Below, piece by piece: positions 42,184-45,146 of a DNA stretch of 64,000 nucleotides (position 1 is the stretch's first letter; every line of letters starts with the position of its first letter). The notes beneath the pieces are model-generated. The model was not told where the DNA came from. It ran no database searches and saw only the letters and a program-made list of their open reading frames with translations. The position numbers and the translations under genes were made by a program. The stretch is from the NCBI GenBank assembly GCA_024103355.1, contig JAGFIU010000010.1, positions 124,001 to 188,000 on the forward strand, in the 5' to 3' direction. The DNA is from Bacteroidota bacterium. GTDB taxonomy: Bacteria > Bacteroidota > Bacteroidia > NS11-12g > UBA955.

Positions 42184-43161
42184 ATGCAACATTTATTAGA
42201 AAAATATGATTATATCGAGCGTTTATTACAGCTTGAGAATGAGACTCCTGACAGACATGAGTTTCACAAGAAAGTAGCTCCGCTCTTATTGGAGATGACT
42301 GCGGATAAAGAGTTTTTAAAAGATATCATAAAAAGAAATTTTCTGGATGAAGGGTATCTTAAAATGCAATGGTCCGGATATAATATTCCGTTTATGTACG
42401 TTTATGAAACAGAACATTTTGTATTAAAACTACATTTATTTCCGCCTGACAAGGATAAGAAAGATAATATAGCTGCACATTGTATCCATCATCATAATAA
42501 TTATATCATCACTACCAATGCCTTTTTTGGTTCCGGTTATGAGAGTTTTTTGTTTGAAAAGAATCCTAAAACAGACCCTAAAACTTTGGATGTAAACATG
42601 AAAATAACCAAGCACTTTCACCAGAAAGATTGGAATCCGAGTATGGTTGATAGCTGGGAACCTCATGTAGTCTTTATTCCACAAGAGTTGTCTTCTACTT
42701 TGATAATATGGTCACCGGATAAAAAGAGGACAACAGATAGTCTTCGCCAAAATTCGTTGTTGAAATCAATAAAAAAACCTTTGAGATGGTTTATTCATAA
42801 GACCGGTATGACACAGTCTTTTGGTATAGCAGAGGAGAAAACGTATCAGTTCTATCCAAACCCAAATGGTAAGGGATTTAAGGGTATAGAAGAGAATGAA
42901 TATTTTGCTCCTACTAAGGCTGAAAAAGGTCCTGTGGTGGATGAGTATTCAGCTCAGATGATATTTGCTTTTATACAAAGAGCCGGATTGTTTGATGCGG
43001 AGTTTTTTAAGGAGAATAAAAATAAAATCCCTGCTTATTATCATAAGTTTATTGATATGTGTGTTGCAGGTGAGCAGATACCTGATGTATATCATAGAAC
43101 AGAAATTAATGTGCCCCAAAAGACGTATTATAGGGAGGATATTGTGAAGGCAGCGGAGTAG
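42184..43161 (+). CDS. Unrecognised protein, possible cupin-like fold
   Basis: A protein of 325 residues with no signal peptide and no membrane segment. I do not recognise a family. Notable is AAHCIHHHNNYIITT near residue 98, a cluster of four histidines and a cysteine. Further HFHQKDW (about 146) and PHVVFIPQ (about 164) add histidines that could complete a metal site in a beta-rich domain, as in cysteine-dioxygenase-like cupins. The C-terminal part is helical (SAQMIFAFIQRAGLFDAEFF). The gene has its own leader of about 110 bases after the weak terminator at 42074. A tailoring enzyme for the polysaccharide is possible but unsupported. Confidence 0.6.
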   Translation: MQHLLEKYDYIERLLQLENETPDRHEFHKKVAPLLLEMTADKEFLKDIIKRNFLDEGYLKMQWSGYNIPFMYVYETEHFVLKLHLFPPDKDKKDNIAAHCIHHHNNYIITTNAFFGSGYESFLFEKNPKTDPKTLDVNMKITKHFHQKDWNPSMVDSWEPHVVFIPQELSSTLIIWSPDKKRTTDSLRQNSLLKSIKKPLRWFIHKTGMTQSFGIAEEKTYQFYPNPNGKGFKGIEENEYFAPTKAEKGPVVDEYSAQMIFAFIQRAGLFDAEFFKENKNKIPAYYHKFIDMCVAGEQIPDVYHRTEINVPQKTYYREDIVKAAE

Positions 43162-43162
43162 G

Positions 43163-43374
43163 GTTTCACGTAAAGAGCGATTTTCACGCAAAGGGCGCGA
43201 AGAGGGTTTCACGCAAAGGGCGCAAAGAAATCTCTCGCAAAGAGCGCAAAGGAGAATTTAATACGCAAAGGGCGCAAAGAAGGTTTCACGCAAAGGACGC
43301 GGAGAAGAATATAAAACGCAAAGGGCGCAAAGAGAAAAACTAAGAAAGAGTTTAATACATAAAGAGTGCAAAGA
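43163..43374. repeat. Degenerate ACGCAAAGGGCGCAAAGA array, left of GxxExxY gene (class E)
   Basis: About eight units of TTTCACGCAAAGGGCGCAAAG and variants, with point differences and short insertions. It begins immediately after the stop of the 42184 gene and ends about 60 bases before the nuclease gene. The reverse-complement family flanks the other side of that gene (43838-43942). No other copy is seen in the window. Confidence 0.92.
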
Positions 43375-43434
43375 AGGATTTAGGGTATTTTATTATACGA
43401 AGGAAGTTGATTGTAAAAGAAAATATTGATGATT

Positions 43435-43812
43435 ATGACAGAGAATGAAATTTCAAATAAGATAATTGGAGTTGCGATTGATTTGCATAAGGCTGTAGGA
43501 CCGGGTTTGTTGGAGTCTGCTTATGAAAATGCTTTGGCATACGATCTGAGAGAAGCAGGGTTGATTGTTGCACAACAAGTGTCTCTGCCTTTTGTTTATA
43601 AAGAAGTTAGTTTGGAAGTTGGTTATAGGATTGATTTATTGGTGGAGAATAAAGTTATAATTGAAGTTAAATCAGTTGAGAACTTAGCTCCCGTTCATTT
43701 TTCACAAACACTTACCTACCTCAAATTATCAGACCTTAAACTAGGTTTACTAATAAATTTTAATACAAAATATCTTAAAGACGGCATCCATCGAATGGTA
43801 AATAATCTCTAA
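43435..43812 (+). CDS. GxxExxY protein, predicted PD-(D/E)XK nuclease
   Basis: A protein of 125 residues. It has the name-giving motif in GPGLLESAYENAL (about residues 21-33) and a PD-(D/E)XK core: Asp in GYRIDLLVENK and Glu-x-Lys in VIIEVKSVE. The family is widespread in Bacteroidota and has no proven function; a nuclease or DNA-modifying role is expected from the fold. ATGs at 43429 and 43435 and a TTG at 43426 are available; MTENEIS at 43435 matches usual family starts. It lies between two inverted arrays of the class E repeat, so gene and repeats appear to form one module. Confidence 0.88.
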   Translation: MTENEISNKIIGVAIDLHKAVGPGLLESAYENALAYDLREAGLIVAQQVSLPFVYKEVSLEVGYRIDLLVENKVIIEVKSVENLAPVHFSQTLTYLKLSDLKLGLLINFNTKYLKDGIHRMVNNL

Positions 43813-43837
43813 AATAAAGAACAAAACTCTTTCCCTT

Positions 43838-43942
43838 AGCGTCCTTTGCGAGAAACCCTCTTCGCGCCCTTTGCGCGAAACTCCTTTGCGCTCTCTGCGT
43901 GAAACCTTCTTTACGAGAAACCTTCTTTGCGAGAAACTCCTC
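43838..43942. repeat. Inverted class E repeat array, right of GxxExxY gene
   Basis: About five units of the reverse complement of the left array (CTTTGCGAGAAACCC, GCGCCCTTTGCGCGAAAC, CTCTGCGTGAAACC). Together with 43163-43374 it gives a head-to-head arrangement around the nuclease gene. The right array ends only about 14 bases before the next glycosyltransferase ATG. Confidence 0.9.
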
Positions 43943-43955
43943 TCCTCCTTTTAAA

Positions 43956-45146
43956 ATGAAAATCATCTTTTACTCTCCTCATCCGACTCACGATATAGTC
44001 ACCGAAGTTGGCTATGCTACTCATCAAAGAGAAACTATCAATGCTCTTAAAGACTTAGGCGTTGATGTAATTCCCGAGATACTGGGAGGTTCTACATGGG
44101 CTGAAGTGCCATTCAAAGAAGGTAAAGCAGTCGAACCCAAAGGTCTAAAAGGTATTTTGAAAAAAATCATTCCTAGATTTATTTGGGTTAGTTTGCGTGA
44201 CTTTGACTTATTTGCCAAACATGACTTAAAAGCCAGAATACGTTTAGAAAAGTCTGTTAGTTTACATAAACCGGATTTGATTTATGAACGATCGGAATAT
44301 CTGCAAGACAGCGGTATGAGAGTTGCCAAAAAGTTTGGTATTAAACATTTTATTGAAGTTAACGCTCCCTTTGTTGAAGAAATGAAAAAAATGGAGGGAT
44401 TGAGTGCATGGCATTGGTTAGCGCATAAAAAGGAGAAAAAGAAATATGCTTCTGCCGATAAGATATTTGTTGTATCTACGGTATTGAAAGAGTTTTTGAT
44501 TAAAAGATACAATGTGAATGAGGATAAAATTTTGGTTTCTCCCAATCGCATAAATAAAGAATCTTTCTTGAAAGCAGTAGAATCTGCACCGGTAATTAAT
44601 TTTAGAGACAAATATCCGGTTGTAGGGTTTGTTGGTTCAATTTTACCTCATCATGGTGTTCCGTTGTTATTAAAAGTTTTTGATTTTTTAAATGCTCAAA
44701 ACATTGAAGCCAATTTATTGATTGTAGGCGGAGGAGGAATGTTAGAAGAACTCATTCAAATTACGGCTGATAAGGGTCTTAAAGACCGCATTCATTTTAC
44801 GGGAAAGATTCCTCATTCCTTGGTTCCGGGTTATATTCAATGTATGGATATTTGTATTATGCCGGATTCGAATTGGTATGGTTCACCTGTTAAAATCTTT
44901 GAATATGGAATCTTGGGAAAGGCAATTATAGCACCTGATAATGGTCCGGTAAGAGATGTGATGGTTGATGGTGAAGACGGTTTATTGGTCAAAAATACAA
45001 TAGAAGATATTGCTAATGCTATTAAAAGATTGCTGAATGACAATAGATTATGCAGACAGTTGGGGGAGAATTTTAAAAAGAAGATTGAGGCAAACTATAC
45101 TTGGGAAAATGCAGCCAAAATGATTATTGAACAAAGTAAATCGTAG
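43956..45146 (+). CDS. GT4-family glycosyltransferase
   Basis: A protein of 396 residues with a GT-B fold. The N-terminal pattern is KIIFYSPHPTHDIVTEVGYATH, RSEYLQD and HFIEVNAPF. The donor domain has VSPNRINKESFL, VGFVGSILPHHGVPLLLKVF in pieces, IHFTGKIPHS, SPVKIFEYGILGKAIIAPDNG with the Ex7E-like glutamate, and GLLVKNTIEDIANAI. ATG 43956 is chosen because the upstream in-frame extension translates the class E repeat. It is the last clear glycosyltransferase of the locus. The sugar specificity is unknown. Confidence 0.88.
   Translation: MKIIFYSPHPTHDIVTEVGYATHQRETINALKDLGVDVIPEILGGSTWAEVPFKEGKAVEPKGLKGILKKIIPRFIWVSLRDFDLFAKHDLKARIRLEKSVSLHKPDLIYERSEYLQDSGMRVAKKFGIKHFIEVNAPFVEEMKKMEGLSAWHWLAHKKEKKKYASADKIFVVSTVLKEFLIKRYNVNEDKILVSPNRINKESFLKAVESAPVINFRDKYPVVGFVGSILPHHGVPLLLKVFDFLNAQNIEANLLIVGGGGMLEELIQITADKGLKDRIHFTGKIPHSLVPGYIQCMDICIMPDSNWYGSPVKIFEYGILGKAIIAPDNGPVRDVMVDGEDGLLVKNTIEDIANAIKRLLNDNRLCRQLGENFKKKIEANYTWENAAKMIIEQSKS

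Follow-up and report, generated by a model that had tools for sequence, protein, structure and literature searches.

Free-standing homing nucleases, PD-(D/E)XK ones included, are an established kind of system. For the REPtrons, in which a TnpA_REP/RAYT enzyme is associated with REP/BIME repeats, a co-evolution of the enzyme and the repeat has been reported (PMC8266576). In the open-access literature searched, GxxExxY is named in passing, and no paper was found there that describes this repeat or links GxxExxY (PDDEXK_3, PF13366) to repeats. Here we describe a GxxExxY gene lying between head-to-head repeat arrays in a Bacteroidota genome, within the 64,000 nucleotides that were analysed as a whole (the window). 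An earlier note on this DNA had likened the locus to a REPtron. The resemblance holds as an analogy (a gene plus inverted arrays), but REPtron/RAYT membership was rejected: the protein has a predicted PD-(D/E)XK fold and no HuH (Y1) TnpA_REP transposase is present, and instead of REPs, i.e., palindromes of 20–40 nt with a tetranucleotide tag and many genome-wide copies, tandem heptamers occur, in this genome as an array at one locus. Membership of the insertion sequences was also rejected, as the block holds no transposase gene. Overall, the GxxExxY block has the look of a minimal mobile DNA element of a kind that has not been described.

A predicted nuclease gene between head-to-head arrays

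The locus comprises the following features (positions in the window):
42184–43161, forward strand: upstream operon neighbour of 325 aa, without a Pfam match; one flank of the insertion gap
43163–43377, forward strand: left array, eight units of the (A)CGCAAAGnnCGCAAAG type (T1 repeat) pointing toward the gene; from the sequence and a repeat search
43435–43812, forward strand: GxxExxY nuclease gene, 125 aa from ATG; from PF13366, TIGR04256, conservation in 221 homologues and the AlphaFold2 model
43835–43941, reverse strand: right array of five CTTTGCG-type units, the reverse complement of those on the left and facing them head to head
43956–45146, forward strand: downstream neighbour, a group 1 glycosyltransferase; the other flank of the insertion gap

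The eight left and five reverse-complement right units around the gene, given as approximate counts in the earlier note, were confirmed by the sequence and a repeat search. The left array starts immediately after the stop codon of the upstream gene, which is conserved in 18 of 57 relatives. Its units are double heptamers of the ACGCAAAGGGCGCAAAG type, the first and the last of the eight being degenerate, while the right array consists of three double and two single units. The best arm pair comprises 49 nt with 90% complementarity and a separation of 607 nt. The gene runs from an ATG at 43435 to a stop at 43812, an alternative upstream TTG at 43426 being possible. Searching the whole 2.3 Mb genome with CGCAAAGNNCGCNAAG, allowing at most one mismatch, gave 10 matches, nine of them at the window locus and one at a lone site, and no match with the reversed pattern as control. 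The claimed absence of this repeat family elsewhere in the window is borne out and extends, apart from this lone site, to the genome. The genome also carries a second GxxExxY gene, on contig 50, with a different terminal motif (GTCTGAATCAGGAT).

The protein matched both PF13366 (PDDEXK_3; E = 3.7e-40, 137 bits, cut-off 22) and TIGR04256 (E = 1.8e-42, 144 bits, curated cut-off 35) far above the cut-offs, and it carries GPGLLESAY together with D67, E77 and K79; it belongs to the GxxExxY/PDDEXK_3 family. The PD-(D/E)XK residues E27, D67, E77, K79 and Q91 are intact. Among 221 family members, G22, G24, D67 and N108 show no variation. Conservation is 96–99% for E27, E77, K79 and Q91, and 96–100% for the active-site residues overall. 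The AlphaFold2 model (pLDDT 88.7) has a PD-(D/E)XK fold, with the Cas4-like SSO0001 (4ic1, Z 9.7) as the best VIA match and LHK-Exo and lambda exonuclease as the best, marginal Foldseek matches (E about 1e-3); a search of solved structures by sequence gave no match. The family matches, the intact catalytic residues and the modelled fold agree with the predicted nuclease identity that had been read from the sequence. PDDEXK_3 was the sole Pfam match of the only gene of the block, with no transposase and no HuH/Y1 domain. Six homologues retained in relatives (L116, L117, L120–L123), few and related to each other, have neither the GxxE glutamate and the ExK lysine nor arrays; judging from these residues they are presumably inactive. 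A known defence protein was considered and rejected, as the search of PADLOC-DB matched no families.

Repeat arrays in relatives and their match to the protein lineage

Co-location of repeat and gene was assessed in 80 relatives of the window gene, fetched by protein from species-level genomes. The exact CGCAAAG heptamer reached 11.0 per kb on the plus strand within 50 bp to the left of the gene and 17.7 per kb on the minus strand within 50 bp to its right, as compared with 0.03–0.15 per kb at more than 1 kb from the gene. Close to the gene the heptamer, in head-to-head orientation, is thus about 100 times as dense as at a distance of 1 kb, and the scrambled heptamer stayed near zero throughout. 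Head-to-head tandem pairs were present on both sides of 41 loci, on one side of 30 and on neither side of 9, while the same tandem-pair rule applied at 1.35–1.95 kb from the gene found none in 62. Among 57 relatives, the strict CGCAAAG pattern gave 72 matches versus 2 for the control. With G015, a single MAG holding 33 scattered copies of the pattern, set aside, 26 of the 39 matches lay within 5 kb of a GxxExxY gene versus 0.34 expected; these 39 form 16 clusters, 8 of which are near a GxxExxY gene. Outside G015, the repeats are therefore not equally common away from GxxExxY genes, and most catalytically intact genes of the family carry arrays, the two points on which the earlier note had made a partnership of repeat and protein depend. 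When scored genome by genome, the strict CGCAAAG pattern co-occurred only weakly with GxxExxY genes of whatever kind (Fisher p = 0.18), as expected if CGCAAAG is used by only one subfamily.

Dispersed copies of the repeat were found in a few relatives only, and the window genome has no such pattern. G015 carries long alternating forward and reverse CGCAAAG arrays on many contigs (L131, L132), with a period near 179 bp, and combines its 33 strict matches with one recognised GxxExxY gene; these arrays resemble BIME arrays. Gene-less hairpins built from this heptamer occur in several gaps separating adjacent genes of G003 (L135) and G013 (L140), no more than a few kb from a GxxExxY gene.

A de novo test, free of any motif, determined for 221 distinct genes the best gapless inverted match between the 400 bp to the left and the 400 bp to the right, with one flank reversed but not complemented as control. 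Scores of at least 14 were reached by 68% of the 218 testable loci versus 4% in the control, and scores of at least 18 by 40% versus 0.5%. Some loci have perfect arms of 33 and 42 nt, but about a third do not show a clear inverted repeat on each side. The heptamers are arranged in tandem on a 9–10 nt period, with a peak of the unit spacing at 9 nt, and the test uncovered further unit types. The median distance from the array to the start codon is 35 bp and, measured between the outer pairs, the median size is 496 bp. A typical element comprises one nuclease gene between head-to-head arrays and is about 0.45–0.9 kb long. That the arrays arose by chance was rejected on the basis of the genome search, the flank enrichment and the de novo inverted repeats, each set against its controls.

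The repeat types are distributed by protein subfamily. Subfamily S1 (GPGLLExxY) is associated with tandem CRCNRAG (T1), with TTTCACGCAAAG or TTTAACCRCAGAG at the outer edge; S2 (G[YFNS]GFLExxY) with ATRGAACGCGGAT plus CRCNGAT (T2); and S3 (GNGFQExxY), which includes the second copy of the window genome, with GTCTGAATCAGGAT/GTCTGAA (T3). S1 loci had T1 on both sides in 73 cases, T2 in 7 and T3 in none; counted in the same way, S2 loci had only T2 (13) and S3 loci only T3 (7), while the reversed controls amounted to at most 4 in total. The T1, T2 and T3 motifs were defined after inspection of the flanks, which does not apply to the de novo test. On a tree of the proteins, repeat type undergoes 9 changes, versus 43 when shuffled, and with one locus per homologous-flank cluster (143 clusters) 9 versus 32.5 (minimum 28). 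For the second base of the unit, the collapsed tree has 7 changes versus 16.8 when shuffled (minimum 12). Among pairs of loci within one genome, 43 of 50 were concordant in subfamily and repeat type (Fisher p = 1.9e-7) and 7 broke the rule. Given this concordance within genomes, host base composition does not explain the repeat type and was ruled out as its cause. Proteins at least 70% identical to that of the window have CGCNAAG at 24 of 32 independent loci, and for proteins 50–60% identical to it CACNNAG is the commonest unit. The repeat type follows the protein lineage and not the host genome, and there are at least four cognate repeat types in the GxxExxY family. The earlier note had described a single repeat family, which is real at this locus but is only one of these types.

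The GxxExxY family is present in 151 of the 296 Bacteroidota genomes sampled. It was found in none of 50,697 phage records and in 7 of 72,556 plasmid records, and three distant members are on viral contigs. A role as phage or plasmid cargo was rejected by this near-absence, and movement between cells must therefore be rare or chromosomal. On two of the viral contigs (L346, L347), the inverted repeats that flank distant GxxExxY genes are A+T-rich and differ in type (e.g., AAATTAAAAGAAAATTTTTAAGAAAATT), a hint that more cognate types may exist.

Filled, empty and differently occupied gaps

A comparison of orthologous loci, as proposed in the earlier note, found the window gap empty in 12 relatives, in which the 325-aa gene directly adjoins the glycosyltransferase with tens of bp between them, and filled in others. 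The window genome and G001 have a CGCAAAG element in this gap, with proteins that are 83% identical. In G021 and G013, the same gap holds GxxExxY genes that are 54–55% identical to that of the window and have CACAGAG/CACTGTG-type arrays. The nearest relatives of these two proteins are found at other loci (70–73% identity) and are neither each other nor the window protein, which points to about three occupations. Hence, elements with different repeat types seem to have entered the window gap on about three independent occasions.

Between map (methionine aminopeptidase) and a methyltransferase gene in genus g26, a query of the joined flanks matched in 119 of 121 genomes, many of them uninterrupted and many interrupted by about 0.5 kb. 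Among the genomes in which this gap was read out, the empty state goes down to an overlapping TAATG. The filled states have either GPGLLESAY with CRCNRAG or GKGHSEKVY (about 40% identical) with CACGAAT/CACTAAT, and decayed states have shortened genes or single orphan ends. A GxxExxY gene is also present between fabD and fabG in Sphingomonas. In genus g39, where close empty alleles were sought, a 92% relative has an interruption there too, and sites free of it occur at about 72% only, which gave no exact junction. Terminal inverted repeats bound the insert and the boundaries agree with the empty sites; no target-site duplication was recognised in the filled and empty pairs compared, which are too diverged for exact junctions. 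In the loci read, the elements lie between co-directional operon genes and are nearly confined to intergenic gaps. Gene and arrays form an insertable block with lineage-specific repeats. Strong support for the proposed partnership of nuclease and repeat comes from co-location, head-to-head orientation, the match of repeat type to protein lineage both between genomes and inside them, and the existence of filled as well as empty sites.

Some gaps have a more complex content. In G254 (L223), a gap flanked by ABC transporter genes holds two CGCAGAT-type GxxExxY elements in tandem, where G159 (L242) has a single copy. An unrelated palindromic element, CCTGCAAGGTTTTCAAAACCTTGTAGG, is found in the map/methyltransferase gap at L320 and L325, in the latter with one GxxExxY-type unit left beside it. 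Among four congeneric species of Salinimicrobium (L064 versus L041, L044 and L049), a gap adjacent to an msrA-like gene has GxxExxY genes in opposite orientations. Gene inversion between the arms is disfavoured, as the units differ (CGCAAAG in L064 versus CACGAAG/CACAAAG in the others), and independent occupations of the same gap are preferred.

Proposed mechanism, rival explanations and known systems

We consider it probable that the block at 43163–43941 is one inserted genetic unit, the GxxExxY element, which is mobile by means of its own nuclease and its cognate terminal arrays. In this scheme, the head-to-head arrays of a short cognate sequence would act as terminal inverted repeats. The nuclease, probably multimeric, would recognise the heptamer units in DNA and may cut at or beside them. 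Repair of the cut ends, or of cuts at matching arrays elsewhere, would then copy the block into intergenic gaps or excise it from them. Since the protein lacks a transposase domain, the joining is proposed to be done by host repair. Arrays that have no gene would be copies that have decayed or are non-autonomous. That the nuclease drives the movement of the element by acting on its arrays is our inference.

Within the idea of cutting, the main rival is a homing-type drive, in which the nuclease would cut gene-less intergenic arrays and the array-flanked gene would be copied in by homologous repair, the arrays being homology and recognition site rather than transposon ends. Free-standing homing nucleases being known, and gene-less hairpin arrays of the same unit being found in gaps of G003, G013, G015 and G032, this reading has a basis. 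However, no array at all is present at the empty sites of the window gap, nor at most empty sites between map and the methyltransferase gene, so that the arrays seem to arrive together with the gene, and many genomes, that of the window included, have no gene-less arrays. We therefore regard homing as unlikely.

Slightly less probable again is that a shared host or third-party process builds inverted arrays around several small genes, the nuclease being a passenger whose arrays are lineage-specific by descent. It draws on the S23/23S_rRNA_IVP genes (PF05635; L348–L377), which encode four-helix bundles, number up to 16 per Bacteroidota genome and lie between head-to-head arrays of another class, with about a 7-nt period (e.g., AGTCAGGAGTCAGGAG) and an inverted score of at least 14 in 66% of 29 loci versus 10% in the control. 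As these non-nuclease genes share a similar architecture, the nuclease may not make or move the arrays. Against this, CRCNRAG is found in none of the 29 S23 loci, the repeat type goes with the nuclease subfamily both at unrelated loci and inside single genomes, and the nuclease residues are kept while the putatively dead homologues have no arrays.

It is improbable that the arrays are kept for pairing in the operon transcript, with the stem removed as in rRNA intervening sequences and the insert tolerated. The complementary arms and the position between co-directional operon genes would suit such processing, but the spacers between the arms are weakly complementary (0.40 versus 0.31 shuffled) and the mismatches are not biased to G.U (126) over A.C (166) pairs; what seems to be conserved in the arms is the sequence unit rather than the pairing of an RNA stem. 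That the arrays are operators or another regulatory device of a resident, domesticated nuclease gene, and not the ends of a mobile unit, fits their place beside the start codon (median 35 bp) and the implied cognate protein–DNA relation, but is very improbable given the second, inverted array behind the stop codon and the presence or absence of whole blocks at conserved gaps.

Returning to a mobile element with its own nuclease, the general form of this proposal is about evenly balanced between being right and wrong: GxxExxY elements would be a widespread class of minimal mobile DNA with a PD-(D/E)XK nuclease as the sole enzyme, which would recognise and cut its own terminal heptamer arrays, with protein and array co-diversified into at least four specificities across bacterial phyla and with repeated colonisation of the gaps between operon genes. 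If true, this would provide an origin for many short intergenic repeats in these genomes (CACAGAG, CGCAAAG, ACGCGGAT, GTCTGAATCAGGAT). If the nuclease alone drives the element, this would be mobile DNA in minimal form, free of a transposase, from which compact sequence-specific nucleases could be obtained. The cognate code between protein and repeat, with its natural variants, offers an immediate route to testing the binding of the protein.

Among known systems, the Cas4-like and lambda-type exonucleases (SSO0001, LHK-Exo, lambda exonuclease) are the closest solved folds of the predicted model, but the GxxExxY protein is much smaller, shares 14–20% identity with them and has no iron-sulphur or helicase partner seen; the modelled fold is not taken to show a shared function. 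The S23 genes have in common with the GxxExxY elements a tiny ORF, head-to-head short-repeat arrays and many copies per Bacteroidota genome, but differ in their unrelated non-nuclease protein, their repeat period and, in the 29 loci, the absence of a GxxExxY motif. Free-standing homing endonuclease genes are also compact nuclease genes in specific gaps with empty sites in relatives, whereas GxxExxY elements bring their own lineage-matched arrays and different lineages share one gap. With insertion sequences they share a single gene, inverted ends, presence or absence at conserved sites and shortened remnants, but not the transposase domain; moreover, they end in arrays of several units whose length varies, target duplications were not recognised in the diverged pairs, and the loci read are nearly all in intergenic gaps. 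The REPtrons differ in having a HuH/Y1 transposase instead of a PD-(D/E)XK nuclease and one imperfect palindrome instead of tandem heptamers on a 9–10 nt period, and GxxExxY repeats have few dispersed copies in most genomes. In both systems, however, a small chromosomal gene has cognate inverted short repeats on both sides, enzyme and repeat diversify together, and gene-less copies are present in some genomes.
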